The translations under genes and the position numbers were made by a program. Positions 6,288 through 46,045 of a stretch of 64,000 nt of DNA are shown in pieces. Below the pieces are notes generated by a model that made no database searches, was not told where the DNA came from, and saw nothing but the letters and a program-made list of their open reading frames with translations. Within the stretch, counting starts at the first letter, position 1. Every line of letters starts with the position of its first letter. The DNA is from Mangifera indica (lineage: Eukaryota; Streptophyta; Magnoliopsida; Sapindales; Anacardiaceae), in contig NC_058156.1 of NCBI RefSeq assembly GCF_011075055.1, positions 5,952,001-6,016,000 on the forward strand, given 5' to 3'.

Positions 6288-6448
6288 TTTTTCTCTGTGA
6301 GTGGGTTCTACACATGAAAACAATCAACCGTGTAATATTATGCTATTATAGATTCAAGTGTGCTTCTGTAAATATGTTTTCTTTTAAGATTTGACATAAC
6401 GGCCTGATTTGGTGAATTTATATATGTCTCACTATTAAAATTTTAACA
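6288..6448 (+). repeat. Second part of the old copia LTR, ending in AACA
   Basis: This continues the LTR broken at 2108 (CTCTGTGAGTGGGTTCTAC and onward) and ends TTTTAACA at 6448. If the young element at 6455-12835 is removed, the next bases read ATATGGTATCAC. That looks like the start of a tRNA-Met primer site, as expected right behind a 5' LTR. Confidence 0.5.
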
Positions 6449-6466
6449 TATGGTTGTTAGTTTTTC

Positions 6467-6526
6467 TTTCTTCATGGCTTCATGCATGGTAACTGCTTTC
6501 TTCATGGCTTCATGCATGGTAACTGC
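6467..6526 (+). repeat. Perfect 2 x 30-bp tandem duplication in the LTR U3 region
   Basis: A 30-bp unit containing CTTCATGCATGGTAACTGC occurs twice back to back, and the same duplication is present in the 3' LTR at 12407-12466. Partial inverted copies (GCAGTTAC, TTCATGCAG) follow. Repeats of this kind in U3 often hold enhancer sites, but no specific factor is claimed. Confidence 0.9.
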
Positions 6527-6657
6527 AACAGTTACTTCTTCATGGGATAATGGTAACTGCTTCATGCAGTTATTTCTTCATGATGTAATGGTCTGTAACT
6601 CCCATGCATAACTCCACAAGTTACGTAGCATTCTTGATGGTAGAATGCTTCTTAAGG

Positions 6658-6667
6658 CTATAAATAG
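6658..6667 (+). promoter_or_regulatory. TATA box of the copia LTR promoter
   Basis: CTATAAATAG stands about 55 bp before the first downstream ATG (6713), which places transcription start near 6690. The same box is in the 3' LTR at 12598-12607, where it could drive read-out transcription. Confidence 0.7.
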
Positions 6668-6712
6668 GGTCCCTGGGTGAGCTTTTTTAACACTGAAAAC
6701 ATACACCATTCT

Positions 6713-6800
6713 ATGAGAAAAAGAGATCACCTGGAAGACGAAAGTTTACAACAATTTCCAGAGGATTATTCTACATCAAATCGTCAAGCAATGGCTGGAG
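6713..6800 (+). CDS. LTR-encoded first exon of the gag reading frame
   Basis: An open frame starts at ATG 6713 (MRKRDHLEDE...) and contains a second in-frame ATG at 6791 (ATGGCTGGAG). It stops one base into a codon at the donor GAG|GTTAGT (6800/6801). Joining it to the acceptor TTTGCAG at 8021-8028 continues the frame directly into gag (MAG + VIQPVNFSD). The 26 codons before ATG 6791 contain no stop in either LTR copy. The first exon therefore adds 29 codons, or only three if translation starts at 6791. Seen: the frame and splice signals. Inferred: that the splice is used. Confidence 0.65.
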
Positions 6801-8028
6801 GTTAGTGTTTAATATTCCGTAATTTAATTTTGGTTTCTATCTTGCATACTCAGTATATATATGCTTAGATAGAGACCATATACATGATTCTAACATTTGG
6901 TATCAGAGCTTTTTTATGCCTCTGCCTTGCTTTGATGTGTTAAACATGCATAATTTTATGAAATCCCGAATTTCTTTAAAGAGAGAAAGTTGGTTGTTGG
7001 CATTTTTTGAATAAAATTTTTATTTAGATGAATTCTACATCAAAAACTGAGAATTTTGATATATGGAACGTCAAAATCAGAGTTTTGTAGGCTAATTTAG
7101 AGTTTAAAATTGTATACGGGTCTGTCGACCCGAATCTTGACCGGGCTAGAGGTCAGGGACGATCTTCAGATGACATGTCGTTCATCTATTTTATTAAAAT
7201 GTAAAATTTTCCTTCAGTTTCGTGTCTTGAACCCAGGCCACAAGGCACCAGGTTCTGAGTAAGACACTTGCCACTCAGCCAGTTTCATTTTCGTTGAAAT
7301 TTTGGGACATCATACATTGTTATATGCTTTAGTTTTAGTTGCCATGAATAATAACTTTGTTAGGGTTAAGTGTGAATATTTTTGGCCTTAATAAAATATA
7401 TTTTTATAATATGTGATTGCCAAAATTATTATTATTAATTTTAATTGGATAATTTAAGTTTCATTTATCCAATTTTTAGTGTTTATTAAATAATTTAATA
7501 ATTATTTATATGATTAATTTTATGCATAATTTTGGTTTAATTGAAATTATACTTTAAATAATTTCTTAAGGATTATATGCATAAAATTAAATGTCATGTG
7601 ATTAGTATAATATTTGATTGATCATAGAGTAGCCACAGCATCTTTGATTATATCAAAGTTATACATTAAGTATCATGGGATCACATTTAGTTATATGACA
7701 TCAATTGTAATTAATCAATATAAGTATGATAAATTTTATCCCACAGGAATTTTTATTATATTTATGTGATTAATTAGGATGAAATAACAAATTATTTTTT
7801 GTAATCTACCCACAGGAATTAAGAAAAGGAATATAATTTGGTAGTTTTATCATACGGTTTATATATTTGTAGATAAACCTATTTAAATTAAAAACTTAGC
7901 CCACAGACAGTTTTTATGTTATATGGTTTATATATTTAAAGCATGTTTATACATTGGTAGAACATGATATTAATTTTGATAGCTTCAAATTTAGTGACTT
8001 AAGCGTATATGTTAATATTTATTTGCAG
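6801..8028 (+). other. Predicted intron between the LTR exon and gag, containing the leader
   Basis: It runs from GTTAGT at 6801 to ATTTGCAG at 8028 (1228 nt), is T- and AT-rich, and contains the end of the LTR and the primer site. There is no open frame and no recognisable domain. Spliced RNA would lack the primer site, so only unspliced RNA could act as genome. A run at about 7218-7280 (TTGAACCCAGGCC...) resembles a Pol III B-box and is common in copia leaders. Confidence 0.6.
6898..6909 (+). promoter_or_regulatory. Primer-binding site, initiator methionine tRNA
   Basis: TGGTATCAGAGC lies two bases after the LTR end. It is complementary to the 3' end of plant initiator tRNA-Met, the standard minus-strand primer of copia elements. 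Confidence 0.93.
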
Positions 8029-8872
8029 TTATTCAACCTGTGAATTTCTCTGATAATGTATGTGATGTTCCTATTTTGAGTGGTGACAATTATAAAATTT
8101 GGAAGGAGAGAATTCTTCTCCAATTAGGGTGTATGGACATTGATTATGCTATTAGGAAGGATGAACCACCTACAACTACAGAAACTAGCACTCAGAATGA
8201 AATTGCCCTGTATGAACGTTGGGAGCGATCTAATCGCTTGAGTATGATGTTCATCAGGACACGCATATCTGCTAGTATTCGTGGTTCAATCCCTGAGTGT
8301 AATAATGTCAGGCAATTACTGAAGGCTATTGATGAACAGTTTGAGTCTTCAGATAAAGCACTTGTCAGTACTCTAATAACAAAGTTTACATAATGAAGCT
8401 CACTAGTGTTAAAGGTGTGTGTGAGCACATCATGCAAATGAGGGATTTTGCAGCTCAACTTAAGGCTCTTGAGATTGAGATGTCTGAATCTTTCCTGGTG
8501 CATTTCATTCTAAATTCTTTTCCACATCAATACGGACCTTTCAAAATCTCTTATAACACACATAAGGAAAAATGGTCAATCAATGAACTTCTGACCATGT
8601 GTGTTTAAGAGGAAGGAAGGTTATTGATTGAAAGGAATGAAAGTGCACATATGGTTACACAAGGGAATAAGACGAAAAACCAAGCTAAGTATAAGGGAAA
8701 GGATAAAATATTCAATCAACCCGAATTTAAGAAGGAAACCAAATGTTTTTTCTGTAAAAAGAAAGGACATGTCAAAAAGGATTGCATTAAGTTTAAAACT
8801 TGGCTTGAAAAGAAAGGTAATCCAATCTCACTTGTATGTTATGAATCTAATATGGTTGATGTTTGTCATAAC
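8029..8872 (+). pseudogene. gag: Copia gag (capsid/nucleocapsid), broken
   Basis: The reading frame enters at the acceptor and reads VIQPVNFSDNV, then the UBN2/gag-polypeptide region with W-K-E and LGCMDIDYAI. The frame changes at about 8391, where one base appears to be missing, producing a TAA at 8391-8393. The correct frame resumes at 8393 (MKLTSV...). An in-frame TAA at 8606-8608 interrupts it again; the family normally has a glutamine codon there. The nucleocapsid zinc knuckle C-x2-C-x4-H-x4-C is intact at 8744-8785 ([14 protein letters not shown]). Gag would form the virus-like particle and bind element RNA. The frame is still open enough to show that the breaks are recent. Confidence 0.93.
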
Positions 8873-11800
8873 ACTTGGTGGATTGATTCTGGTTCTACAA
8901 TCCATGTTTCAAATACCTTGCAAGGCTTTCTAAACCAAAGGAAGTCGATGGCCAGTGAACAAAACATCTATTCAGGAAATAAGATGCGTTCACATGTGGA
9001 AGCGGTCGGAACGTGCAGATTAGTTTTAGATTCTGGTTTTGTTTTGGATTTAGAACGAACCTTTTATATTCCAAGTTTCTCTAGAAACTTGATTTCTGTT
9101 TCAAGACTTGTACCCTTTGGATTTTCCTTTACATTTAATGAAACTGCATTTAGTTTGATTTATAAATCTGTAGTTGTGGGAAATAGTACATTGTTTGATG
9201 GTTTGTTCCGAATTCATTTACAAAATAATGTTTCATTTAATTTGATGCATGTTCAAGATAATGTTGGTATTAAAAGAAGTGTTATGAATGAAAATTCCTC
9301 TATATTATGGCATCGGAGATTGGGACATATCTCCATAGAAAGAATTAAAAGGTTAGTGAATGATGGAGTACTAGATACTCTAGATTTTACTGACTTTGAT
9401 ACTTGTGTGGATTGTATAAAGGGAAAACAAACCAACAAGTCAAAGAAAGGTGCCAAGAGGAGTTCAGACATATTAGAAATCATACATACAGATATTTGTT
9501 GTCCTGATATGGACGCTTATGGTCAAAAATACTTCATCTCATTTATTGATGATTATTCACGATACATGTATCTCTACATGCTCCATAACAAGAATGAAAC
9601 ATTAGATGCCTTTAAGGTTTTCAAGGCAGAAGTAGAGAAACAATCTGGAAAACAAATTAAAATCGTGAGATCAGACAGAGGTGGAGAATATTATGGTAAA
9701 TACACTCATGATGGACAAGCACCTGGTCCATTTGCAAGGTTTCTTGAAGAAAATGGGATTGTTGCCCAATACACTATGCCTGGTTCTTCGGACCAAAATG
9801 GTATAGCGGAAAGAAGAAACCGAACTCTATTGGACATGGTGCGGAGTATGCTTAGCAGCTCTAATCTTCCTAAATCACTGTGGGTAGAAGCTCTTAAAAC
9901 GGCAGTGTATATATTGAACCGAGTTCTAACCAAGGCTGTTTCTAAAACACCATTTGAGTTATTTAAAGGTTGGAAACCGAGTTTGCGACATATACGCGTT
10001 TGGGGATGGCCGTCTGAAGTAAGAGTTTATAATTCACATGAAAAGAAATTAGACCCAAGGACTATAAGTGGTTATTTCATTAGATATGCCGAAAAGTCTA
10101 AGAGTTATAGATTTTATTGTCCATCACATAGCACTAGAATAGTGGAATCTCGAAATGCAAAATTTCTTGAAAATGACTTAATCAGTGGAAGCGATCAATC
10201 TCAGGATTTAATTTTTGAGAAAGATCATTCAGGTACTCAACCACCCATTTCGAGTAAAAGATTGGTTGTTATTTACAACACCCCTCAAGTTCAAATGGAT
10301 GTTGAACAACCAATCAATGAAGTTCCACAAGTTGCTGATAATACTCTAGTAGATCAAACTGTTCAACAACCTTCAGATATTGTTGAACCTCCAGTTGTAC
10401 ACTCTACTCCACAAGAGGATAGTGTTACAACATTAAGAAGATCAACTAGAATGAAGAAATCAGCTATTTTTAGTGATTATATAGTGTATTTACAAGAAAT
10501 TGATCATAATTTAGGAGCCGAAGATGATCCTGTTACGTTTTCACAAGCAACGGATTGCAATAAATCTATTTTGTGGTACAATGCTATAAAAGATGAGATG
10601 AAATCTATGAAGAGTAATGAAGTCTGGGATTTTGTCAAGTTACCTAATGGGGCAAAGGCCATTGGGTGTAAATAGGTCTATAAAACAAAGAAAGACTCAT
10701 TAGGTAACATCGAGAGATATAAAGCAAGACTCGTTGCTAAGGGTTTCACTCAAAAGGAGGGAATCGATTATACGGAGACCTTTTCTCCTGTATCTAAGAA
10801 AGATTCTTTTCGTATTATAATGGCATTAGTAGCCCATTTTGACTTAGAATTGCATCAAATGGATGTGAAAACGGCATTCCTCAATGGAGATTTAGAGGAA
10901 GAGGTATCTATGAAACAACCTGAAGGATTCTCCTCTAGTGATGGTGAGCAATTGGTGTGCAAGCTTAGAAAGTCCATATATGGATTGAAACAAGCATCCC
11001 GTCAATGGTATTTGAAATTCCATGAGGTTATCTTTTCATTAGGTTTTGAAGAGAATATCATGGATCAATGTATATACCAGAAGGTCAGTGGGAGTAAAAT
11101 TTGTTTCCTTGTTTTATATGTGGATGATATATTACTTGCAACCAATGATAAAGGATTGCTTTATGAGGTGAAACAATTTCTCTCTAAAAACTTTGATATG
11201 AAAGATATGGGTGAGGCGTCTTATGTCATTGGCATTAAGATTTATAGGAACAGACCTCAAGGCATACTAGGTCTATCTCAAGAAACCTATATCAACAAAG
11301 TTTTAGAGTGATTTCGGATGAAAGATTGTTCACCAAGTATAGCACCAATTGTGAAGGGTGATAAGTTCAATTTGAACCAATGTCTTAAAAATGAACTTGA
11401 AAAGGAACAAATGCAGAACATTCCCTATGCTTCAGCTGTTGGAAGCCTTATGTATGCTCAGGTTTGCACAAGACCTGACATTGCATTTGCTATTGGGATG
11501 TTAGGAAGATATCAGAGTAACCCAGGTATAGACCACTGGAGAGCTGCAAAGAAAGTGATGCGGTACCTTCAAGGGACCAAAGAATACATGTTTATATATA
11601 AACGGACTGATAATTTAGAGGTAGTTGGTTACTCCGATTCGGATTTTGTCGGTTGTGTTGATTCAAGAAAATCAACATCTGGATATATTTTCTTGTTTGC
11701 CGGCGGAGCCATATCTTGGAGGAGTGCCAAGCAGTCATTGATTGCTACATCTACCATGGAGGCTGAGTTCGTTTCTTGTTTTGAGGCTACATCACATGGT

Positions 11801-12097
11801 GTATAGTTGAAGAGTTTCATATCTAGGCTTAGGATTGTGGATTCTATTTCTAAGTCGTTAAAAATTTATTATGACAATTCAGCTGCTGTTTTCTTGGCTA
11901 AAAATAATAAAAGTAGTAGTCGAAGTAAACATATCGACATTAAGTATTTAGCCATTAAGAAACGTGTAAAAGAAAATAAAGTGGTCATTGAACACGTTAG
12001 CATTGAATTGATGATTGCCGATCCTTTGACAAAAGGCATGCCACCAAAAAGTTTTAAGGATCATGTAGAGCGAATGAGAGTTAGTCTCATGTTGTAA
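8873..12097 (+). pseudogene. pol: Copia pol: protease, integrase, reverse transcriptase, RNase H, broken
   Basis: One frame holds all domains. The protease has the DSG active site in [10 protein letters not shown] (near 8880). Integrase has the HHCC finger (WHRRLGH ... CVDC, near 9308-9417) and the catalytic D, D, E: HTD, SDRGGEY, and [11 protein letters not shown]. Reverse transcriptase has YVDDILLA (11116-11139). RNase H has GYSDSDFVG and TMEAEF, then RSKHIDIKY and DPLTKGM near the end. Three in-frame stops break it: TAG 10673, TGA 11309 and TAG 11804. Each lies where one transition from a normal codon (Trp, Arg, Trp) would produce it. The final stop is at 12095-12097. Catalytic residues seen are all present. 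Confidence 0.96.
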
Positions 12098-12385
12098 TAG
12101 TGATGGGAGTTAGTTCCATCATGTGATTTGATGTATATACATTTTCTATAATAAAATTATTCAGTTTTTCAATTGATTAAGTTTTCTCATTTTATGTGCA
12201 CATTTTGGTTGAGAAAATAATCAAATTTGGACCTAGAATAAACATAAGGTTTATTCATTAAGATATAGAGGAATGAATACATCGTGATACATGGAAGATA
12301 ATACTCGTTCTTAGAGGACTTATCGCCATGATTCGTGTATTTTATTTCTTTACTTCAGTATGTGGATTGATGGGTTACAGACCAA

Positions 12386-12394
12386 GTGGGAGAA
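12386..12394 (+). promoter_or_regulatory. Polypurine tract of the young copia element
   Basis: GTGGGAGAA lies immediately before the 3' LTR start TGTTAG, the usual plus-strand primer position. The 12098-12385 stretch between pol and this tract has no open frame of note. Confidence 0.9.
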
Positions 12395-12835
12395 TGTTAG
12401 TTTTTCTTTCTTCATGGCTTCATGCATGGTAACTGCTTTCTTCATGGCTTCATGCATGGTAACTGCAGCAGTTACTTCTTCATGGGATAATGGTAACTGC
12501 TTCATGCAGTTATTTCTTCATGGTGTAATGGTCTGTAACTCCCATGCATAACTCCACAAGTTACGTAGCATTCTTGATGGTAGAATGCTTCTTAAGGCTA
12601 TAAATAGGGTCCCTGGGTGAGCTTTTTTAACACTGAAAACATACACCATTCTATGAGAAAAAGAGATCACCTGGAAGACGAAAGTTTACAACAATTTCCA
12701 GAGGATTATTCTGCATCAAATCGTCAAGCAATGGCTGGAGGTTAGTGTTTAATATTCCGCAATTTAATTTTGGTTTCTATCTTGCATACTCAGTATATAT
12801 ATGCTTAGATAGAGACCATATACATGATTCTAACA
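12395..12835 (+). repeat. 3' LTR of the young copia element
   Basis: It is 441 bp and identical to the 5' LTR except at four transition sites. It repeats the TATA box, the ATG leader (from 12653) and the splice donor after ATGGCTGGAG (12731-12740). Transcripts starting here could therefore add an LTR exon to downstream sequence. Confidence 0.97.
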
Positions 12836-13824
12836 ATGGTATCACTACGATTTTTGTCAGATTTTGGAAGAAAGAAAAAACTATAGTTTTATAATTAGTT
12901 TACATGAAAATTCGGATTTAATGATTGGTAATTTATGGAATCATTCACAGAGTGGTTAAAAAGTAATTAAAAATTGTTATTGCTTTTGTTTGTCGACTGA
13001 GCGGTATAAGTGACTGTAATTATTGAATTTGTTGATCATGATTCAACATCACGATGATTTAATTGGTTTGATTGTATATAGCTAGGCTGATTTATAATTG
13101 TTGAAAAGTAAATGATTTGATGTTGAATTGGTTTGATGAATTCAATTGTACTGCTAAGGGTTTATTTGATGGAACAATTTGTGGGTTATATAGATTTATA
13201 TTTTCTTTGTCTGTTTGTTTGTTTTTTAGGGTTAAAGTTTATGCTATACCTATATCTCTCTTAATTATAAAATAAGCCAATTAAATCATAATTTTTTGAT
13301 TGGCCCTTTGGTTTGACTATTTTAGAGTTTTTGAGTCAAGATATGATGGCTATTCAATTGGGTCATTCAAATTGGTTTTTTGTATCTGACCCATACAGAT
13401 TTGGCATAGCTTTGATCTACTAGACTCTATTCATATTAGACCCAAATCTATAGAGAATAAAATTATTTATTATTTTATTATACGTACACATAAACTTCTT
13501 TATTTTGTAATTTTTATTTCATTTTTCAGTATAAATTGAAATAATATATTGTTTAAATAGCCTTTATTATATACATTTATTTTGATTTTTGTGAATGTAA
13601 AATAAAAAATTGCATAATTTATATCTAAAACTATTCAAATAATAATGAACACAAAGGTTGTTTTTTTTCATAGAGTTTAGGTATATGAGGTAATACATAT
13701 TATTATTAATGCATTGCATGAGTAATTATGAGTTTTCTTTTGTTTTGCATATCTTTATTTACTGTTTTGAATCATTACTGTCACTAACTTTGTAAAATGG
13801 AAAGAACATATTATCATTGTACTT
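12836..13824 (+). pseudogene. Leader and gag start of the old copia element
   Basis: Immediately after the target duplication the sequence reads ATGGTATCACTACG, a decayed primer site that joins to the old LTR end at 6448. The following 900 bp is AT-rich leader without open frames. Near 13784-13824 the bases translate as T-N-F-V-K-W-K-E-H, the start of copia gag (compare W-K-E-R in the young element). The LINE at 13825 then interrupts. Gag resumes at 14696. Confidence 0.55.
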
Positions 13825-14695
13825 TCTTTTCTTTTTTTTAACGAGTAAATGTGTATAAAACAGAACAAGGGGACACTTAAGTGAAGAACTGAAGCCAACC
13901 TAAGCTCGACCAAACCTAAGGCAGGCCAGCAAAAAAACTACAACAGACAAGCCAAGAACAAGCAAGCCATTCCAAGAAGTAAGAGAGCTTCCCATAACCC
14001 CGGCAAAACATAAGCAGCAGAAACAAAACAAGATGCCTCCAGGAAACGCACACCAGCCAGAAACACAAAGGAGCAAAGGGCTTCAGCAGAGAGACTGCCA
14101 ATCAAGCAGTAGCGAAGCACCAGCAACAGGATAGCCAGAGAGCAGAGTAAAAACAAAGAGAAGCTCAAATACAAAGCAGGGAGATGCAGCAGAAGATGCG
14201 CTGGAAAACTCCATCAAACCAGAAGAAGAAACCATGCCGAAAACACCAAACTGACGAGCATAGAGCAGGATCTAGCAGCTGACCTCTGGAAGATGCACAC
14301 TGGAAGCAAGCAGCTGGACAAGGAAACAAAAACTGGACCAGGGCGATAGAAAGCAGGCAAGGCAAGAAACTGTGGAGAAGCTTGGCAGCAACACAGGCCG
14401 AACAACACTAGAAAGAGAGCAACAGGAAAATGCAGCAAGCAACAAAATGAAGCACAGGACTAGAAACAGCTGGAGGCTGGACTTTAGGAAAAAACCGCTG
14501 CCACAAAATGGGCAGAAAGAGACCACCAGGCGCAGATGCAGCGACGGAGAAAAGTTGCTAGCACAGAAAGACCATCCATGGGGTAAGGAGAGCCAGCGCA
14601 GACTTGCAACAAGGGACCAACCTGAGCAGGAAGAAGAACACAAAAAAACTGTAGGAGCAAAACCAGCCCACAGCACCAAACACGAACAAAAACCG
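13825..14695 (-). mobile_element. 5'-truncated LINE (L1-type) 3' end
   Basis: The plus strand here is strikingly poor in T and rich in A, G and C, unlike its surroundings. On the minus strand it ends TTTACTCGTTAAAAAAAA, a poly(A)-like tail at 13832-13839. It is flanked by near-duplicates of the old gag sequence (TTATCATTGTACTT at 13811-13824, TTATCGTACTT at 14696-14706), as a LINE target duplication would be. Minus-strand open frames are rich in Cys, Leu, Phe, Trp and Ser and match nothing I can name. They probably represent the tail of ORF2 or the 3' UTR. The class is inferred from tail plus duplication. Confidence 0.6.
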
Positions 14696-16200
14696 TTATC
14701 GTACTTGGGTGTATGGATCTAGACTATGCAATTTGGGTTGAGCAACCTCCCATTCTTACTAAAGATAGTACAACTGAACAAAAAAAAAACTTTATGAAAA
14801 ATGGGAGTGTTCAAACCACGTAAGTCTTAACATAATGAAACACTTTATTCATGTTTCCATTAGAGGATCAATGCTTGAAGAAGTAATTGCATTGTAGAGC
14901 AGTTCATTGGATCAAAAAAGGTAGAAACAAATACGCTTCTTAGCAAGCTTGTTTCAATGCAGTACGAAAGCAAAAGGAATGTAAGAGAGTACATTATATA
15001 AATATCTAATCTTGTGACTAAACTAAGGGCGCTAAAGCTATATTTGTGTGATGACATTCATGTGCACCTACTCTTCATCTCTCTACTTGTACAATTCAAC
15101 CATTTTAAAATTAGCTATAATACTCCAAAGGAAAAACGGAGTCTAAATGAGCTTATTGCTCAATGTGTGCAAGAGAAAGAGAAGATTGAAAGTGCTTATT
15201 TAGCAACCTCTTCTCATGTAAATACACATGAAAAGAAAAGAAAAATAGATAATAAATTAGGTAATGGAGTTGGAATGCTAGGACTTCATAACCGAAGGTG
15301 CAACAGAAACTTGATAAAGGTATCAATTGTTTCTTTTCCAAGAAAGTTGGTCATATAAAGAAGGATTGTTCCAAGTATGATAAATGGCCCACCAAAAAAA
15401 ACGTAAACTTCTCAACTTTGTTTTTTTGAAGTTAATTTAGCTATTATACCAATGCACGCTTGATAGATAGGTACAGGTGTAACTGCTCACATAAGTGTTA
15501 CTATGTAAGATTGTCTAAGGAGTCAAATGCCAAATAATACTAAAAGATTTATCTATGTGGGAAATGGCAACAAAGCTCTTGTGGAGGCAATTGGATTATA
15601 TAGGTTATATTTAGAATTTTGTTGATATATGAAGTTAGATGAGACTTATTATGTATCGCCAATTGGAGGGAATTTAATTTCTATTTCTTGTTTGGACATA
15701 TTAGGTTCCTTTTATTCTTTTAGGAATGGCAAATTTAATCTTTTTCAATATTCAGATATTGTCAATACAGGTAGTTTGATTAATAATCTATATAAACTTA
15801 ATTTGCATGTCTTACATATGAATGAAACCTTGCATGTAAGTGATTAGGGTATAAAACACAAAGTGATTAATGAAAATTCTTTCATGTTATGGCATAAGCA
15901 TTTTGGAACATATATTAAAACAAAGAATTGTAGGGCTTGTGTAAGAATAAATTCTTAATTCCATTTCTTTTTCAGATTTTGGTACATGCATTAAATGCAT
16001 TAAGGGAAAACCTACAAACATGAAAAAATTAGGTGCATATAAGAGTTTAAATTTCCCGGAAGTAATACATAGTAATGTGTATGGGTCATTCCTTATGACA
16101 TCTTGGAATGGTTAATAGTATTTCATTATTTGTATAGATGTTTATTCTCGTTATGGGTGTTTGTACTTCATAAATAAAAAGTCAAAATCATTAACATAAG
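14696..16200 (+). pseudogene. Old copia element: gag, zinc knuckle, protease region, integrase start
   Basis: Fragments in shifting frames match the young element. Near 14703 LGCMDLDYAI occurs, and near 15105-15150 a stretch (ISYNTPKEKRSLNELI) parallels its gag C-terminus. The zinc knuckle near 15328-15372 has lost its second Cys (CFFSKKVGHIKKDC). The protease-integrase spacer (GGNLISISCLD) is at 15629-15847, and the integrase finger half C-IKCIKGKPTN is near 15985. D-VYSRYGCLYF near 16138 belongs to the integrase core. Many stops and frameshifts show great age. Confidence 0.8.
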
Positions 16201-16745
16201 AATTCCTATTTGCTACTTAACATAGGTGTAAACAATCCAATGCATAGGGATTATCACCTATTGTTGCTACTTAATACATGGTACTCAGTTACTTTAGTAA
16301 TTTGTCATTTATTACTTGCATTACCTTGTTTAGTTTATTATTAATAAAATATTACAATAGTATTCTATTACTAATGATGATATAGCAGGTAATATAAGTG
16401 ATAATCCGATTACCACCATCACCATAGATATTAAAATATTACTAAAGTAATTTTAATTGTATTATAATTATATTTTTATTTATTAATTTTTAAGATAAAA
16501 ATAACCTCATTTTCAATTAATAGAACAATTAATATAAAAAAATATTTTAGAATAATTATACCCTAGAACATTTAAGTAAAATAATATACTAGTATTTTTT
16601 TATTATCCTAAGCAAACACAATAATTATTTATGTCTACCACATTTTATCAAACATAGTGATAATTTATATCTAATAATCTTCTAAATAATCTATTTTCAA
16701 AGTAATCTTTCAATTTTAGTGATAAAACATTACCCAAACCAAACG
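16200..16745. mobile_element. AT-rich MITE-like insertion inside the old copia pol
   Basis: Copia similarity stops near 16200 in the integrase and restarts near 16746 at the spacer before reverse transcriptase. Part of this gap may be a deletion. On the minus strand the right end reads GGACGTTTGGTTTGGGTAAT, a style of end common in plant MITEs. A clear inverted copy at the left end and a target duplication were not found. There is no coding potential. Confidence 0.35.
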
Positions 16746-17184
16746 TCCTCTTAGGGTATTCCTAAAGAGGAACATGTTTCTAGTCGTGTGGAGGAATCAT
16801 AATAACCTTAACAAGATGTTCCATTGTGTAGATCCACTAGGGAGAGGAGATAAGCAATTTCAAATGATTATGTTGTTTATCTCCTAGAGCATGAGTTTGA
16901 TATAAGATTAGAAGATGATCCAATATCTTTTAGTCAAGACGAAAAAAGTGCTAATGCCCAAAAATGGATAGATGTCATGAAAGATGAGATAAAATCAATG
17001 AAAGATAATGACGTGTCCGATTTTTCAAATTTCTCGAAGGAGTGAAATTAGTTGGTTACAAATAGGTTTTCAAAATCAAGTGAGATTTAAAAGGCAATGT
17101 TGAAATATGCAAAACACATCTTACCACAAAATGTTTTACTCAAAAGGAAGACATTGACTATAAAAAGACTTTCTCTCTAGTTTT
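16746..17184 (+). pseudogene. Old copia element: start of the reverse transcriptase region
   Basis: The bases translate in patches as DDPISFSQ, W-IDVMKDEIKSMKDN, GYK, then ER-type and EDIDYKKTFS-like motifs, matching 10520-10790 of the young element. It is cut at 17184 by the gypsy LTR start and resumes at 45918. The base run GTTTT at 17180-17184 pairs with GTTTA at 45918-45922 as target duplication. Confidence 0.8.
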
Positions 17185-28000: not shown

Positions 28001-30668
28001 ATTAGTGAAATACTCCAAGGGAGAAAGCTTGGAGGAGTGGACGTAGGTCGGATTGAGCCGAATCACTATACATCGCATGTTTGATTTTCTCTTCCCTTAA
28101 ACTTATATTTTATGTTATGTTATTTTGATTGTATTGATTATTTGAAATATTTTAGTTATTTTCATACATTGGATTAAAAAATAGGCAACATTATTTGATT
28201 TGAATAAATTGCTTTAATTCTCAAATTTGGTAAAGATAGTTTTAACGTTGCCTAATTCACCCCCCCTCTTAGGTCATTCGATCCTACAATTATATATGCT
28301 TCTATTGAGTCTTAAAGTACACAATGGTGTTATCTATGAACTCTATTAAGAACCTGTCTAGGCAATCTTGGAACACCTTGTTCATTAAATTCATAAATAT
28401 TGATGGGACATTGGTCAACCCAAATGGCATAACCACAAACTTATAATGACCTTATCTAGTTTTGAATGTTGTCTGGGGTATATCTTGCTTAGTAACCTTG
28501 ACTTGACGATAACTTGACCTTAAGTTAATCTTGAAGAATACTGAAGTTTCTTTAAGTTGATCAAATAAGTCATCTGTCCTCCAGAGTGGATATTTATTCT
28601 TCACTATATCCTCATCGATCTATCTTTCTTTTTACAAATATGATTATTGCACCCCATGACGAGTGGCTCGAACAGATGAATCCACTATCTAGTAGTTCTT
28701 TAAATTATTTCTTTAGCTCTTATAATTCTATTAAGGCTATTTTGCACAGAACTTTAGAAATTGGCACTGTGCCCAGGGCGAGCTTAATACTAAACTTCAT
28801 CTCTCTCTTTGGTGCTAACTTTGAAAAGCTATTAGGGAAAACATTTGGAAATTCTTACACCACTGAAGTATCCTTCACACCCGAGATTGTCTCATCTGAT
28901 TTGTTTACTATATATGTCAAATATACTATACACCTTTTATTCAATATTTTTTTAGCTTTGATACTGCTAATCATCATATTGAAAACTTGACCCCTTCTAA
29001 AAGTGAATTGTTCTCCACTATCCAGGCTGAACCAAACCTTTTTCTTTTTACAGTTTATCTCTACCTATATTTGTTCAAGAAGTCCATGTAAAGTATTATA
29101 TTGATGTCTAACATGTCCATCACAATCAGGTTAACTACCAACTCTTGACCTCGTAGAGAAACTATCTCTCTAATTAACAAGTGACTACTAAGATCTTTGT
29201 CCCCATCTGGTGTTATTTACTGATCTATAGAACAGTTAAGAGCTTTACCCCAATCTCTCTATTATGCTTCTAGTAACAAAACAATATGTGACACTAGAAT
29301 CAATTAAAACATAAAGAGGACAACTATCACTATTGTCAAGTTAGCCTTAACCTAAGTCTAAGTGGCTACATCACTCGGGCCTATACTCCCTCATTTGTCT
29401 ACTCTACCAGGGTTAGCATTACTAGGGTTATGCACTATCTAACAAAATGGTCAAGTTACTTGCACTTGTAACATACATTCTGACATGTCTTTATCCACAT
29501 CTAGGGCAAGTAAAGGGATCCTCTCGCCTTGATTGATCCTCTCTCCTTTATTTCTTGACTGGGAGGTTTATCTTGCCCCTAGGATCTTTGTTATCCTCAT
29601 CTTGGTTGCCACTTGCAACCATCTAACTCTACCTATGAACTGAGGCTACTAGTATAGGCTGATTTGGTATCCCTTTTTCTCGGATCATCTTTTGCCTCAT
29701 GACCTTTGATCTCAATGTTTTACCCAAGGCCTCTAATAATGATTTGGGAGGATTATCTCTCGTAATGACATCATTGGTGATATCTAATCTAAGTTCACCA
29801 AGAAATACCTCTAACTTGCCTCAGTTTCAGCTAGTTACTCCTAGAACATACTTGGCTAATGAGTTCAACTTAGTAGAAAATTCCCTAACATATTACCTTA
29901 TCTCAGATAGAGGAACTTTTAGGCCTTCATATACATGATATCTATAGATAAGTACTCCCTCTCAAAGACCCATATGAAGTCAACCCAAGTCATCTTTGAT
30001 GTTTGATAGGTCCCACATAGCGTTTGCCACTATCCTTTTGAAACATCAGTAAAAGGCTAGCAAACTGAATTTTGTCTACATTCATCATGACGTAAATCAT
30101 CATAATGTCCTCAACTAGTAACCTATCTAATATGGTTTTGCCTCTAAAGTTAGAAGGTTGGTGTTTACATACTAAACTATAGATAGAGTGAATTTGATCT
30201 CTATTGCCACCTATTGTTTCTACTATGTCCTATTGAGGTAAAATTTCAATAACTAATGGTTACTTAGGCATTTGTAAGGCATGCTTCTATATTTTGTCTT
30301 AGGATATCCTTCACTATCCATCAGATAACCTCACTATCTATTAATGGCATAACAAATGCACTGGATGTTTGTCCTTGAGCTTCTGTTTAGCTTCTCTCTT
30401 AGTTAGAGAACTCTAGGGTATCCTTAATCAATCTCTTAGATCTCTTTATCCTGAAATAAAATCTTGACTATGACACATAAAATCCTTTAACTCAATACGT
30501 GTTTATTATACTTATAGTGATAGTCGTATGGGGGTAGTCAACGTTGTATGATGGTAGTCAACGCTATATGAGGGGCTATTTTCCTTACTTAACTCTGTTA
30601 TTCAATTTCAAACACTTACTAACTAAACACCTTTTCTAAGTACCAAGATTATGCTCTAATACAATAAA
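25062..30668 (-). pseudogene. Gypsy interior 1: integrase to gag, minus strand, decayed
   Basis: Reading the minus strand from 30668 gives a primer-like site (TTGTATTAGAGCA), then gag with a match to the NLPKSLLEA block of the plus element (around 29700-29780) and a zinc-knuckle region near 29430-29500. Protease and reverse transcriptase follow (29350-28300, continuing at 26860-26400). RNase H is at about 26350-26150, with an LA-K-Y-ECEIKYHPGK-N type motif. Integrase runs to about 25250. A solo LTR at 26861-28288 splits the reverse transcriptase. There are many stops. Plus-strand open frames at 28586-28990 and 29699-29938 are shadows of this region. Confidence 0.78.
26861..28288 (+). mobile_element. 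Solo LTR of a SIRE/Maximus-like copia element
   Basis: It starts TGTTGACTCA and ends GATCCTACA, with a perfect 5-bp duplication ATTAT at 26856-26860 and 28289-28293. The body has features typical of SIRE-type LTRs: ATTTTGATGATAACAAAC near the start, GGAGTGGACGTAGGTC near 28034, and CACCCCCCCTCTTAGG near the end. At 1428 bp it has no internal domain, so it is a solo LTR. It splits the minus-strand gypsy reverse transcriptase. Around 27380-27600 short words such as TCGATCGACCGAAT recur in both orientations. Confidence 0.9.
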
Positions 30669-31303
30669 TGTAACAACTCTCTCCAAATGCATACCCTTAT
30701 CTGGAATATGACTCAAAGAGATGTGCATAACTAAACTATTAATTTAAAACTTTATAATTTAATGCATGATCAAAATTTCTCAAGCATGCAAAAAGGTGCG
30801 ATATGAAAATGTTGAAGTGTCTTATTTATTAACATTCATAGATGAAGATGTCTAAAATTGAAGTGAAATAATATTGATGCATAAATAACTATAAAATCAT
30901 AACTGAACATTTGAATACATGAATATAGATAAATCTAAATAAAATGACTAATACACCCTTCACCTTTGTATAGCTACTCACTAGACCGTTGGATTCCCCA
31001 CATGCCCTATTTCTCACATCTACCTGCAAAACAAAACAAAATAGTGCTTGAGTAAATACACTCAATAAGTCAGCGACCCCATAATATCCTGAATACTTAT
31101 AAAACTGATAAACCTAGTGTCTTATTTGTGAATCTGTGTGTGGTCACAACTTGACACTCTCATGCTCAAACTTAGGTCATTTACAAAGGTTACTAAAGTT
31201 TAAGCTGAAATCGACATATTTGATGTTCTAGTAAAAACATAAAACACCTTATGTGTCATTATCTGTTGTGCCTTGTACATATGTTATACGACTTATTGGA
31301 CTA

Positions 31304-32767: not shown

Positions 32768-32983
32768 ATAGGGCTAGACCGAACTAAGTCTATTCGAGCT
32801 CGGCTCAAACGAGCCCAAAACAAGCCAGCCCTATAAAAGGTCGGTCGAGCTTGAAATGAAATAGCTAAATTCGAATGGAGTTCAAGCTTGGCTTCTACGA
32901 GCTCGACGAGCTTGAGCTCGAACTTGAGCTCTGCTATATATAAACCGAGCCGAGCTCGAGCTCGGCTCAGCTCAAATCTAGCC
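32768..32983. mobile_element. GAGCTC-rich MITE with short inverted termini
   Basis: It is absent from LTR A and C at the same place. Ends read GGGCTAGA on the left and, reverse-complemented, GGCTAGA on the right. The interior repeats GAGCTCG and CGAGCTCGGCTC in both orientations, so it can fold. Flanks CCTACTAT and TTAACTAT suggest an imperfect 8-bp duplication, as hAT elements make. The short open frame over it is an artefact. Confidence 0.65.
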
Positions 32984-34369
32984 TTAACTATGGGTACATA
33001 TGTGATGCATCATGCTAATCATGTGAAGAAATATCTAAAAAGCCACAATCCTTACCATGTATACATGAATAAACTGAATAGTTATACACTTTGGTGTCGA
33101 ATGTATGATATGGGTGTCCAACTTTATTGTTTTCACATATCTTGCCACTTATGCACGTCATTGGTGGTTATCTAGAGCTGAACCACTTTCCTTTTTTTTT
33201 TTTTCCTTTTTTTTTTTTTCATTTTTGACCAAGATCTAACTTGGTTGGGGTCTCGTGTCATCTTCCAAATAGTCAAGCATTCTTTTTAGTTCTATTTGAC
33301 TTGTCTTTCTTACTAAAGTCTCTTATTGTTTCCTCTTTCTTCTTCTTCCTTTTCCTTGTGTTTGAATTAAGCGTAAAAATTTTTTTTAACTAGATAAGTA
33401 GATGTGTGCCTAGGATGCACCCCTGTGTGCCTCTTTTTAAGCACAGTGTCTAGTTTTGAAAAGTGGCACATATACGTGTGTCCTATACCACACAGTTGGA
33501 TATGACTTTTCTTAGAACGAGAGTGTAAAAATTATAGAATTTCCTAGTTTAAACTAAAGACACACGGGTGTCTATGAAGCTATACACAATTGTGTATTGT
33601 GATCTGGAGATTGTAAAAACCTACAAGTTATATTAATTTCGATGAACCTCTGGTGATTCCAACATATATCATCATACATAAAAAATATCTAATCATCTTA
33701 AACATGTATTATTAATTAATCATACACAAAATCACTTAACATCATAAATCATTGATAGTATCATCTTTAAATCTTAAGATATTAAACAAAATCAGTCTAT
33801 AACATTTTTGAACGAATATAACAACATACATACATGTTACAAACAGTGAATACTCATTATCACATCATGTATCTACCTTAAAATCATAACTTTTCGTTAC
33901 AAGTATTAACCCAATTGAGAGAATGCTTGTTTAACCATCAGAAAGAAAGACCAACTTACTTGTCTTCTGAAGAACAAGTCATTCTTCACATGGCTACAAT
34001 GATTTTTAGCGACCAATAGCTTATTTATGGTGATTGTAAGACTCTTATCTCACTACCTTCTTATTTATAGGTAATTAGGTGCGAAAAGAATGAAAGAAAC
34101 TAGGTTTAACACTTTTTTATTTTTGTCTACTGGATGCAATACACAAGTGTGTATAGACTCTACATGGGCATGTGTCAGGTTACACAACTAAGGTAATACT
34201 CGATCTTATAGTGATTCTTATCTGATTTGATAAATTCAAGTCTATTGATGATACACGACCGTGTATACCTTCATACACGAGTATGCATCCCTTTGGAAAG
34301 CATTAATTAGCTCAATTTAAAACAAGAGAAAAAAATTAAATTGCCCTTAAGCTTACTGTGAGCTTTACA

Positions 34370-37300
34370 ATCCTCCCCCTTATAAGAATTTCGTTATCGA
34401 AATTCATTTGAAAAGTTATAGGAATCACTGTCTTATTTCGTGTTTGACCTCTCATATGGCCTCCTCAACCTAGTGATTTCTTTATAAAACATTGACCAAG
34501 GGAATTTATCTGTATCTGAGCTCTTAAACTCATTTGTCTAGGTTTTGAACTGGGCACTTTTCATACACCAAATTATCCTCGAGCTCGACATCCTCAACTC
34601 TAAACAAATGGGTTAGATCACTAATAAACTTATGCAACAACTACATATGGAACACATTATTAATATGATCCATGATTGTTGGTATCGCAAGCCAATAAGC
34701 AACTATACCTACACGTTTAAACACCTTAAATAGTCCTACAAACCTCGTTGCTAACTTGTCTTTCTTATTGAATCACATAACATGTTTATAAGAAGCTACT
34801 CTAACAAACACCTTATCACTCATACTACACTCAAGATCTTGTCTCATCTAGTCTGAATAACTTTTCTAACGGTTTTAAGTGTACTTCATCCTCTCATTTA
34901 TCACTTTGATATCCTCAATCATCATCTGGCTTATCTCTGGTCCCAAAACCTAAGTTAAGGTATCTCTTTCTCTTATCTTATTTCAATCAATAGTGATCTA
35001 CATCTCCTGCCATATAAGGCCTTATATAGAGCCATCTTGATAGTCACCTGGTAGTTATTATTGTATGCAAACTCCATCAATGGCAACACATCTTTCTAAC
35101 TTACTCATCGATTTAAGTAACAAGCTCTTAATATATCCTCAATCACTTGGTTGACTTTTCAAGTCTAATCATTGGTCTAAGAATGATAGGTTCTACTAAA
35201 TACTAACCTCATACCTAAGGACCTCTATATACTCTGCCAAAAAGTTAAAATGAACCTAGTTTATCAATATGAAACTAACATCTTAGGTACCCCATGAAAC
35301 CTAATTATCTCTTTAACATAAATCTAACCTAATTTATCTGTATTCATGGTGTTTTTAATTATAATAAAGTCCGCTGACTTGGTCAACCAATCAACTATAA
35401 CCTACAAAGCAATAAATCCTATTATAACCTTCGACAATCCACCCATTAAGTCCATTAAGATGTGTTCCCATTTCTACTGTGGAATACTAAGAGGCTATAA
35501 TAGTCTTTTAATGAGTTATGATGCTCAGTCTTAACTTGTTGACACACTAAACACCTAACCATAAATTCTACCATATCCTTTTTCATACTTGACCATTAGA
35601 AAGATCTTTTTAGATCTTGATACATTTTTACACTCTCAGGGTAGGCAGTGTAAAAAGAATTATTCACCCCAAAAAGGATCATGTCTCTTAAACTCTAGTC
35701 TCATGGACACATACTCGACCCCTAATCTTAGAATACCTTTAACAACATTGAAATCTACCTTATTACCTTCAACAACGTTTTGCCTTAATTTAACACACTA
35801 ATCATTTAATACCTAGGCCATACAAATTTCAACTAGAAAGGTTAACTGAATCTATAGGCCTACCAATTGTTTGTTCTATGACTACCTTGATCTTTTTTAT
35901 CACCAACTCTTACTATAACTCTTGGTGAGTGGTAATCTATGATAGAACTACTTTTTTTACTCAGAGCACCTTTAACTATGTTAGCCTTGCCTAGATGATA
36001 TCTGATCTCACATTCAAAATCATTCACTAACTCCAACCACCGTCTTTGTCTCATATTGAGCTCATTTTAGGTAAAGAAATACTTAAGGCTTTTGTGATTC
36101 GTTTATATATTACTTTTGATCCCAAATAAATGATATCATCATATCTTAGTAGTAAATACAATAATTGCCAACTTAAGGTTATGTGTGGGGTACTTGGTCT
36201 TATAATTTTTGAACTAACAAGAGACATACACTATCATTTTACTCTTTGTATCAAAACTGCTCCCAAATCTTGATGTGAAACATCTATGTATAGGTCATAT
36301 TCTTCACCCTTTATCAGCAAAGCTAAGAAGATAGTATATATGTCAACCTCTTATTAAATTCTTGGAAACTTTGCTTATAGGCATCCAACCATCTAAAAGG
36401 AATATCCTTGCAAGTTAACTTTATAAGTGGTCAGGCTAACTTAATGAATCCCTAAACAAATCACTTGTAATAACCTATCGACGTGACGAAGCTTCTAACC
36501 TCTTTTGTTAACTTAGGCCTCCGTCACTCTAATATAACCTTAATTTTATTAGGGTTAACTAAAATGTCATCTATTAATACCTCGTGTCTAAGGAAAGTCA
36601 TTTTGTCTAACTAGAACTCATACTTGGAAAACTTAGCAAAGAATTGTTTCTTTATTAATCTCTATAGCCCAAACCTTAGATATTGTGCATACTCCTCTTG
36701 GGTCTTGGAGTACACAATGATGTCATCTATAAATAACATCTAGACATTCTTAGAATGCTTTATTTATTAGGTCCATAATTACTGTTAGGTTATTACTCAA
36801 CCCAAATGGCATAACCAAAAACTAATAATGTATGTATCTGGTTTTGAATATTGTCTTAGGTATACATTACTCGACAATCCTGACTAATGGTAACCTAACC
36901 TCAAGTCAAACTTAAAGAATACCAAAGCTTTCTTAAATTGATCAAATAAGTCATTTATCCTCGGGAATGGATACTTATCGTTCATTATTACATTGTTTAA
37001 CTTTCTATCATTTATATAAATCCTTATCGGTCCATCTTTATTCTTTACAAATAGAATCAGTACACCCCATGACGAGTGGCTTGGTCAATGAACCCACTAT
37101 CTAACAGCTTTTTAAACTGTTTCTTTAGATTTGATACTTTTACTAAGACCATCTTGTAAAGTACTTTAGAAATTGGCACTATACCTAGGGTGAACTAAGT
37201 ACTCAACTCCACTTTTCTCTCTAGTGCTAGTCTTATAAGACTATTAAGGAAAACATCTAAAAATTCTTGCATCACTAGAGTATATTTCACACCCAAGACT

Positions 37301-38389
37301 TTCTTATCTAATTTGTTTACTATATATGCCTAATATGATATGCACATCTTACTCAGCATTTTTATAGCTTTAACACTGCATATCATCATAATGAGAACTC
37401 AACCTTCTTCCATAGTGAACCACTCTCTACTATCTAAGCTAAACTAAACCTTTTTCTTTTTTAAGTCTATTTATTCCTCATATCTACTCAAGAAGTCCAT
37501 ATTGAGTATCATAGTGAAGTTTAACATGTCTATCACGATCAGGTCAATGTTAACTTTTGATTTCCTAAAGAAACTATCTCTCTAATCATGACATCTATGG
37601 TAATATCTGATTTGAGTCCACTAAAGAATACCTCTAACTTGCCTATATTTGAGTTGGCTACTCCCTAAACATACTTAGCCACAGAGTTCAACTTAGTAAA
37701 TAACTCTTTGACTGACATATTGCCTTGTCTCAAACAAAGGAACTCATAAGCCTTCACATGCATGATATATGTAAATAGGTAGTCACTTTCAAAGACTCAT
37801 ATGAAGTCTGCCTAAGTTATCTATGATACTCAACAAGTCCTATATAACGTCTACCACTATACTTTTTCATCATCCTTAAATAAAAGGTTGACATACTAAA
37901 TTTTGTCTACATTTATCATGGTGTAAATTCTCATGACATCTTTAAGTACTTCTAACCACTCACCAAATGGTAACCTATCTGATACTGCATTGCCTCTGAA
38001 GTTAGGATGCTAATGTCCTATTGAGTCCAAATCTCGATAACTAGAGGTTGTTTAACACTTTTATGTGTCTCTATATTATCTCAGAATTTCCTTTACTATT
38101 CGTCAGATAGTTTCACTGCCTACTAATGGTGCAACTGATGCGTCAGATACCTATCCCTAAGCGTTCTCCTAACACCTCTCATGGTTGGGGAACTCTAGGG
38201 CATCCCTAATCAATTGTGACTAAGGCACTTAAAATACTTTAACTCAATACACGTTTATTATACTTATAGCAATAGGTGTACAGAGGCAACCAATGTTTCA
38301 TGAAAAGCTACTTTCCATCTCTATTATATACTTGACACTTATTAACTAAACACCTTTTTCAGTACCAAGTTATGCTCTGATACCATAAA
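34370..38389 (-). pseudogene. Gypsy interior 2: integrase to gag, minus strand, decayed
   Basis: Read from 38389 on the minus strand: a perfect primer site, then gag (about 38150-37560), protease, reverse transcriptase (about 37150-36450) and RNase H. The RNase H has the clear motif R-RWLELVNDFECEIRYHLGK at 36054-35990 and continues to ALSKK. Integrase follows (about 35850-34600). The order matches interior 1. It is about 4.0 kb, like interior 1 without its insert. Frames are broken throughout. Confidence 0.8.
38374..38385 (-). promoter_or_regulatory. Perfect tRNA-Met primer-binding site of interior 2
   Basis: The minus strand reads TGGTATCAGAGC four bases inside LTR C. It proves the minus orientation and that LTR C is a 5' LTR. 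Confidence 0.92.
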
Positions 38390-40394
38390 TGTAACAACCC
38401 TCTCCAAATATATACTTTAACCAATAATATAACCTGAAAAGACATGCACAACTAGACTACTTAATTTGAAACTTCATAGTTTAATACATGATCACAAATT
38501 CTCAAGCGTGCAAAAATGCGTGATTAAAAGATATTAAAGTACCTCATTTATTAATATTCATAGATAAAGATGTCTGAAATTGAATTGAAATAATATTGGT
38601 GCATAAATAACTATAAAATCATAATTGAATGTCTGAATACATGAATATAGATAAATCTAAATAAAATGACTAATATGCTACTCATCCTTATATAGCTACT
38701 TAATGAACCGATAGATTCCTTACGTGTTCTACTACTTACCTCTACTTGCAAAACACTCAGTAAGTTGGTGACCTTACAACACCTTGAATACTTATAAAAC
38801 TAATAAACCTAGTGTCCCATTTACGAATCTGGGTGTGGTCACAACTTGACACTCTCGTGCTCTAACATAAGCCATCTATAAAGGTTAACAAGGCCTAAGC
38901 TGAAATTGACCTATCTAATGCCTTAGTGAAACCATAAGATACCCTATATGTCATTATTTATCACGTTTTGTACACATTTCATATGGTCTATTAGGCTAGC
39001 TATCTGGAAACCCTGGTCACATGAGGAATAATCTGGTAATAGTCTCTTCCCTTATCATATAAGGTAATCAAAATTGTTGTCTAAACCATCTTGGGATAGC
39101 CCTTACCATAGGTATATATGTGATGCATCTTACTAACAACATAAGAAAATATCTAAAAAGCCACAATCTTTATCATGCACACCTAAATAGACTAAGTGGT
39201 TATGCATTTTAACGTCAAGTGCATGATGTACCTTATGGATATCCAACCCTATTGCTTTCACATATCTTGCTACTTATACATACAGCTAATAGTTATCTAA
39301 ATGTGAACCACTTTCCTTAACTTTTCTAATTTTTTACCTAGATCTGACTTAATCGAGGTCTCATGTCGTTTTCCACATAGTCGGATACTTTTTTTAGTTA
39401 TATTTGGCTTGTCTTTCTTACTAAAGTTTCTTGTTCTTTCCTTTTCCTTCTTTCTCATTTTCTTTGCATTTGAACTAGGGGTAAAATAGTCTTTTAACTA
39501 GATACATGAGGGTATGCCTAAGGTGTAACCATGTGTGTCTCTTTTTAAGTGTGACATCCACAATCGTATATGGCTTTCCTTAGAACAAGCATGTGAAAAT
39601 TACAAAATACCTTAATTTAAACGAATGATACATGGGCATGTATAAGGTCTATTGGTTCTACTAATTTAGGTGAAACTCTAATGATTCCAACACATATCAT
39701 TATATAGAAATAATATCTAAGCATCTTAAACACGTTTTATTAATTAATCACACTTATAATCTCTCAACATCATGAATCATTGACACTATCATCTTTAAAA
39801 TTTAAGATATCATACAAAATCAGTCCATAACATTTGTCAACGAATATAATAACATATAGGCATGTTACAAACATTGAATACTTATCATCACATCATATAT
39901 TTACATTGAAATCATAACTTGTCATTACAAATATTAACCCAGTTGAAAACATGTTTGTTTAGCCATGAGAAGGAGAGGCCAATTTACTTGTCTTCTAAAG
40001 TACAAGCAATCTTTCGCATCGCTATAGTGATTTCTAACAATCAATAGATTTTTTTTTATGATTGTAAGACTCTCCTCTCACTACTCTCTCATTTAGGGAT
40101 AGTTGGTTGTGAAAAGAATGAAATAAATTAGGTTTAACATGTTTTTCTTTTTGTTTGTTAGACGTGGTACACGGGTGTGTGTAGACTCTACACAAGTGTG
40201 TGTCATGTCGTACAACTAAGGCAATACCCATTTATGTCACAATTATTATCTTATTTGATAAATTCAACTTTGCTAACGATACATGACCGTGTAAACCTCT
40301 ATACATGGGTGTATCCCTCTAGAAAACATTAATTAACTCAATTTAAAACAAAAAAAAGACTAAAATGCCCTTGAACTTACCCATGAGTGTTACA
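38390..40394 (-). repeat. LTR C (5' LTR) of the minus-strand gypsy tandem
   Basis: Plus-strand ends are TGTAACAACC and GAGTGTTACA. It is 2005 bp with no insertion. It aligns with LTR A and B and, in reverse, with the plus-strand element's LTRs. Confidence 0.88.
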
Positions 40395-45917: not shown

Positions 45918-46045
45918 GTTTAATTACAAGACTCTTTTGCAATCATTATAGCACTAGTTTCCCATTATGATTTTAAACTTCAATAAATGGATGTAAAAAT
46001 TACCTTTCTCAATGGTAACATTGAAGAAACCATATATATGATGTA
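45918..46045 (+). pseudogene. Old copia reverse transcriptase, continued after the gypsy insertion
   Basis: The bases read Q-DSFAIIIALVSHYDFKLQ, then MDV-I-FLNGNIEETIYM. This matches the young element at 10801-10910 ([34 protein letters not shown]). It follows directly on the sequence broken at 17184. It ends where another LTR begins at 46046. Confidence 0.85.

Follow-up and report, generated by a model that had tools for sequence, protein, structure and literature searches.

Putative splicing from a donor in the LTR would supply the Gag start codon and remove the primer-binding site in a mango element of a widespread plant Ty1/copia group

In a 64-kb window of Mangifera indica DNA (the whole stretch analysed here, 64,000 nucleotides) we found a 6.4 kb Ty1/copia element, spanning 6455-12835, whose Gag frame appears to begin inside the LTR and to be completed by splicing. 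We consider it likely that a widespread plant Ty1/copia group starts Gag on a small first exon, which in this element lies in the LTR, and that splicing removes an intron holding the primer-binding site (PBS) and splits the RNA into a messenger and a genome. A stronger claim, that throughout the seed plants this group makes Gag only from RNA lacking the PBS, with translation and replication strictly separate and the leader mistaken for an untranslated one, seems to us evenly poised between true and false.

The element has the TG...CA LTR ends, short target-site duplication (TSD), PBS and polypurine tract of a Ty1/copia LTR retrotransposon (Table 1), and its integrase lies 5' of a copia-type reverse transcriptase (rve within 8624-10672, RVT_2 within 10820-11308). 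The window's own gag piece gave no Pfam match, and the copia-type domain Retrotran_gag_2 was matched by 15 of 23 aligned relatives. Transcription probably starts near 6690, as predicted from a TATA-like box. This copy is defective: gag goes out of frame after 8390 and continues in a different one, and pol consists of several open pieces, so no normal Gag-Pol can come from the copy itself. The two LTRs of this broken copy differ by four substitutions in 441 nt (6528, 6583, 6773, 6820) and point to a young element. Across 6400-12900 there was no Rfam match at the gathering score. In the U3 part of the LTR (6466-6526), the 31-nt stretch CTTTCTTCATGGCTTCATGCATGGTAACTGC is present as two head-to-tail copies that share one base.

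Table 1. Features of the copia element in window coordinates, and gene models from other plants with foreign sequence joined at the gag acceptor (a slash marks a splice joint).
Feature	Position	Strand	Details
5' LTR	6455-6895	+	441 nt, TGTTAG...CTAACA; TSD ATGGT at 6450-6454
TATA-like box TATAAATA	6659-6666	+	read from sequence
Upstream in-frame ATG	6713-6715	+	T at -3, A at +4
Putative conserved coding part of exon 1, in LTR	6791-6800	+	ATG GCT GGA G, M-A-G plus first base of split codon
Exon 1 end with donor motif ATGGCNGGNG/GT	6791-6800/6801	+	read directly
Proposed leader intron, GTTAGT...TTTGCAG	6801-8028	+	1228 nt, 40.6% T
PBS TGGTATCAGAGC	6898-6909	+	within the proposed intron; presumably initiator tRNA-Met type
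Exon 2 start, Gag N-terminal part	8029-8390	+	frame lost after 8390 in this copy
Further Gag, other frame	8393-8641	+	tblastn with P0075; frame break in this copy
Zinc knuckle CX2CX4HX4C (by eye) and integrase part of pol	8624-10675	+	Pfam Pol_BBD, gag_pre-integrs, rve, SH3_retrovirus
Reverse transcriptase fragment	10820-11311	+	Pfam RVT_2, 2e-43
Pol end	11318-11806	+	open frame without Pfam match; presumably the RNase H part of pol, by position
Polypurine-rich tract AAGTGGGAGAA	12384-12394	+	adjoins 3' LTR
3' LTR	12395-12835	+	441 nt; same ATG-donor cassette at 12731-12740; TSD ATGGT at 12836-12840
Nyssa models, foreign N-terminus and split codon NCN			P0025, P0052, P0152, P0183, P0211, P0215, P0217
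Castilleja models, foreign N-terminus and split codon NCN			P0154, P0218, P0221

An open frame in the LTR runs from ATG 6713 (MRKRDHLEDESLQQFPEDYSTSNRQAMAG), with a second in-frame ATG at 6791, up to a strong donor, GAG/GTTAGT, at 6800/6801 that is itself inside the LTR, and an acceptor, TATTTATTTGCAG (TTTGCAG/), ends at 8028. Joined, the two give ...QAMAG-V-IQPVNFSDNVCDVPILSGDNYK, that is MAG/V/IQPVNFSD, an exact run into gag. An earlier note on this DNA had described the LTR frame and both splice sites, and we found them correct to the base. It had also held that, without splicing, gag has no ATG start before its conserved domain; the gag frame is open from 8016, the first in-frame ATG past the acceptor lies at 8133, within that domain, and the list of open frames gives GTG 8040 as its first alternative start. 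The loss of the primer site from spliced RNA, likewise proposed there, agrees with the PBS at 6898 falling inside 6801-8028. Without splicing, the LTR frame reads MAGG and then a stop, because the donor letters GGTTAG form a codon and a stop codon. Frame and donor recur in the 3' LTR, where a single residue differs (T to A).

Between 6690 and 8030 there is a single AGGTNNGT donor (at 6799); donors of AGGTNAGT strength are not rare in the 64 kb as a whole (11 on the plus and 3 on the minus strand). TTGCAG occurs once in 6801-8060 (ending at 8028), but the same interval has 11 looser [C/T/G]CAG sites. The 6690-8030 interval contains 31 ATGs, 29 of them within the proposed intron, whose T content of 40.6% compares with 21.6% in 6690-6800 and 31.8% in 8029-8390.

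The MAG/V joint predicted from the window matches the N-termini of plant gene models, an agreement between predicted proteins by which splicing is well supported. We searched with the leader-free gag piece 8031-8390, a query unbiased as to the leader, and sorted the proteins by source label: ncbi, uniref and eukprot entries counted as gene-model type, and those with only ena, lgn, jgi or src labels as ORF type. Among the best 120 of 625 matches, M[ATVD]G stood at the joint in 21 of 53 gene-model proteins and in none of 67 ORF-type proteins (Fisher p = 2e-9, with related sequences that are not independent), and 12 of these 21 models read MAGV, as the window predicts. Two more searches (best 120 of 2356 and best 120 of 135) used queries that hold MAG starts and are biased towards MAG. 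Pooling all three gave 221 listed proteins, with M[ATVD]G at the joint in 41 of 112 gene models versus 3 of 109 ORF-type proteins. The 41 joint-start models comprise 26 MAGV, 8 MAGA, 3 MTGV, 2 MVGV, 1 MAGG and 1 MDGV; by listed name they cover 27 genera, nearly all eudicots, with one monocot (Typha) and one entry, PITA_11797, that we take to be Pinus taeda. Relatives thus carry M-A-G and a split codon at the gag boundary. The motif was absent from the other 71 of the 112 gene models, 33 of which have no upstream residues and 38 other residues; among those 38, P0002 and P0044 read the intron, and P0054 (MARV) and P0061 (MTEA) look like variants. Gene models can derive from protein similarity and may copy each other's start. 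Relatives were compared as proteins, and the position of exon 1 in the LTR comes from both LTRs of the window element. One ORF-type protein, P0001 (ena, on an 881 bp contig), shares 97% identity with the window's gag piece across 98% of that piece and is probably, to judge from this identity, a very close copy from the same or a sister species.

The acceptor can be followed in proteins that read into it from upstream. In the window, unspliced read-through gives YLFAV/, from TTT GCA G/TT, and ORF-type proteins that extend upstream mostly read ..FAV/, ..YAV/, ..CAV/, ..FAA/ or ..FVV/. We scored a CAG or TAG acceptor as in phase when the residue before the split codon could come from NCA or NTA and the split residue from GNN. 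This was so in 45 of 50 upstream-reading ORF-type proteins of the leader-free set (best 120 of 625) and in 71 of 81 from all listed sets, where 10 do not fit, with a background of 0.108 per position in the gag body. Residues upstream of the acceptor are rich in F (0.194 vs 0.036), as expected if the end of a T-rich intron were being translated. Together, the in-phase fit and this excess of F mean that the same acceptor has been kept in the same phase in many plants, and the residues before it in relatives appear to read like a T-rich intron end rather than like protein.

Three proteins labelled 'lgn', P0128, P0134 and P0135, read MAGV unbroken on contigs of 1415, 1629 and 1225 bp, and P0135 represents 45 member sequences. 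The other ten of the 13 'lgn' proteins comprise four with other upstream residues and six with none; P0014, P0056, P0066 and P0144 have intron-like ends (e.g. FDAV/, FAV/), so the 'lgn' source seems not to splice in silico. From our reading of the label, 'lgn' presumably stands for assemblies built from public reads, RNA among them. Spliced RNA would be the best explanation of contigs in which the joint is already present, and a DNA retrocopy of a spliced transcript would have the same appearance.

The gag acceptor also seems to be joined to other sequences. In 11 gene models from Nyssa and Castilleja the upstream peptides are unrelated to Gag, and in 10 of them, according to the annotations, the split-codon residue is A, S, T or P (Table 1); the exception, P0149, joins elsewhere. 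Since these four residues are all NCN, the gag exon sets the second and third bases and the joined exon supplies the first, a pattern that a real phase-1 acceptor would give. Four Vitis gene models are ambiguous at the split codon. Some of the foreign N-termini at the gag acceptor belong to models named WUSCHEL, F-box or ubiquitin-like. The Nyssa and Castilleja joins could be either exon capture or an annotation artefact.

The comparison of N-termini supports the core of the earlier splicing model, a Gag start in the LTR with removal of the PBS, and moves its start codon, which had been placed at ATG 6713. That ATG is not conserved, as 38 of the 41 joint-start models begin at M-x-G itself and the remaining three (P0131, P0139, P0163) carry extensions that, by eye, resemble neither one another nor the 26 residues of the window; we rejected 6713 as a conserved start. 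One alternative makes Gag extended from ATG 6713 the main product and gives the 29 residues encoded in the LTR a separate function. It can draw on these three extended models and on the 29 codons being open in both LTRs, but the sole LTR difference within the exon alters an amino acid, and ATG 6713 is close to the presumed cap and in a poor start context (ATG 6791 has G at both -3 and +4). We hold this alternative to be very improbable. We conclude from the conserved N-termini that ATG 6791 would be the ancestral and main start of Gag and that the conserved coding in the LTR would be ATGGCTGGAG, three and a third codons; the 29-codon frame from 6713 is perhaps a local extension translated at a low level, and an N-extended Gag isoform from it is possible.

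That frame and splice sites merely coincide in the window element is an idea to which we give almost no credence. Dinucleotide shuffles were scored for a AGGTNNGT donor anywhere in the LTR part that is presumably transcribed, an ATG in any frame that stays open up to that donor, a YNCAG within the 130 nt preceding gag, and a fusion in frame. Under these loose rules, which were set after the real sequence had been seen and make the figures rough and indicative, an in-frame joint between LTR exon and gag arose in 3 of 5000 shuffles of both parts, in 16 of 5000 when the LTR part alone was shuffled, and in 368 of 5000 when the intron tail alone was shuffled and the LTR exon kept, so that the acceptor alone is weak evidence and leaves some room for coincidence. 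The conservation data are stronger evidence for the joint than these figures: it predicts MAGV, the start of many gene models in other plants. Coincidence, strongly disfavoured by the shuffles and by the gene-model N-termini, was rejected. We regard as unlikely, though less so than either of these two readings, that splicing is only an option which tunes the level of expression, with unspliced RNA also giving Gag-Pol from GTG 8040, by internal entry or from an ATG like that of MQPANF. The gag frame is open upstream of that GTG, and BARE1 and EVD, both Ty1/copia elements, splice partially (PMC3735527, PMC8892269). In some relatives, grapevine included, the first residue of exon 2 is M (MQPANF..), and an unspliced start is therefore possible there, but this M is not general, the residue being I in the window and V, L or S elsewhere, and the 29 ATGs between donor and gag, together with the lack of an in-frame gag ATG before 8133, speak against translation of the unspliced RNA.

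The preferred reading, with Gag started on a spliced first exon, suggests the following mechanism. In the window element, the start-codon exon would lie inside the LTR, between the presumed transcription start and the PBS. The spliced RNA would be exported as the Gag(-Pol) messenger and translated mainly from ATG 6791, with scanning past the poorly placed ATG 6713, and, with the PBS removed, it would offer no priming site for reverse transcription. Unspliced RNA would retain the PBS and be packaged as genome, and it would be unable to make Gag because of the immediate stop and the 29 further ATGs, so that the donor would serve twice, as splice site and as stop of the unspliced frame. Splicing would thus divide translation from replication. 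The earlier note likened this to what retroviruses do, a loose comparison: most retroviral major donors lie 3' of the PBS, and donors upstream of it, in R, occur in foamy viruses and HTLV/BLV.

We also searched DNA collections and inspected the rest of the window. No gag relatives were found in the viral contigs or genome contigs collections. A DNA pattern of start, donor and PBS had no match in viral contigs and two in genome contigs, about the number expected by chance; both, L001 (1124 of 3423 bases read) and L002 (2301 of 8000 read), were judged to be bacterial chance matches. Another copia gag-pol, older, broken and akin to the first, lies at 14683-17024, its pieces showing ~30-55% protein identity; no LTR pair was found for it, and it was rejected as an independent test of the joint, its gag N-terminal region being degraded. 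Diverged direct repeats (71-72%) pair 32979-34356 with 39097-40380 and 30225-31288 with 38013-38983, and a PBS-like site, TGGTATCAGAG, lies at 38385 on the minus strand; the repeats of the 32979-40380 area and this site are perhaps older LTR elements or a duplication. The window further holds a small copia reverse transcriptase fragment (45928-46073), a tandem pair of 279-nt units that are 89% alike (55905-56462), and an inverted repeat at 2-590 with 203-nt arms, 91% complementary and 183 nt apart, perhaps a foldback element.

It has long been asked how a single retroelement RNA can serve as messenger and as genome. If the proposed splicing is true, this plant group would have an old solution to the dual-use problem, with the separation encoded in the element itself and open to inspection in genomes and RNA data already available. 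Each LTR, solo ones included, would be a portable cassette of promoter, ATG and phase-1 donor that could supply host genes with a first exon, and LTR donors together with the gag acceptor could explain some TE-derived gene models. Annotation would also be corrected, as 'untranslated leaders' would become introns and Gag N-termini would change.

Among known systems, yeast Ty1 has its Gag start codon in the LTR and no splicing, one RNA being both translated and packaged; the window element shares the start within the LTR (6791 within 6455-6895) and would differ by splicing. Foamy viruses and HTLV-1/BLV have their donor 5' of the PBS in R, and rice tungro bacilliform virus splices a short leader ORF to a downstream gene, but these belong to other families, join other genes and do not start gag in this way. 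In BARE1 of barley and EVD/ATCOPIA93 of Arabidopsis, splicing yields separate RNA pools (PMC3735527; PMC8892269; PMC12786077); their intron is placed at the gag end or 3' of it and gives a Gag-only RNA whose start codon is independent of splicing, whereas the proposed intron of the window element (6801-8028) precedes gag, starts within the LTR and would take the PBS with it. Ogre, a Ty3/gypsy element, shares the completion of a coding frame by splicing, but its intron is placed between GAG-PROT and RT (PMC6317226), not before gag. Spliced copia isoforms were reported from long reads of sunflower, mostly shortening the RNA to Gag alone (PMC7730604), and of triticale, mostly Gag-only (PMC7765848); a leader intron may be compatible with those reports, whose exact intron positions are in figures. 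According to a 2005 paper an intron upstream of gag was known in no LTR element, and a 2025 review calls plant LTR elements generally intronless, with Ogre and EVADE among the notable exceptions (PMC12786077).

The open-licence literature that we covered, PMC7175516 and PMC4535378 included, yielded no account of an LTR exon spliced to gag or of a spliced leader before gag in copia elements; an earlier description in subscription papers, outside this scope, is possible. Noble, a grapevine copia family, is described as having an 'untranslated leader' of 269-695 bp that begins with the PBS TGGTATCAGAGCC (PMC2576258). This is the same PBS as in the window element, and the main text of that paper does not mention splicing. 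The soybean Ty3/gypsy element Diaspora also resembles the window element, with splice donors predicted within its LTR, acceptors predicted around the gag start, and a long leader (PMC1142308).
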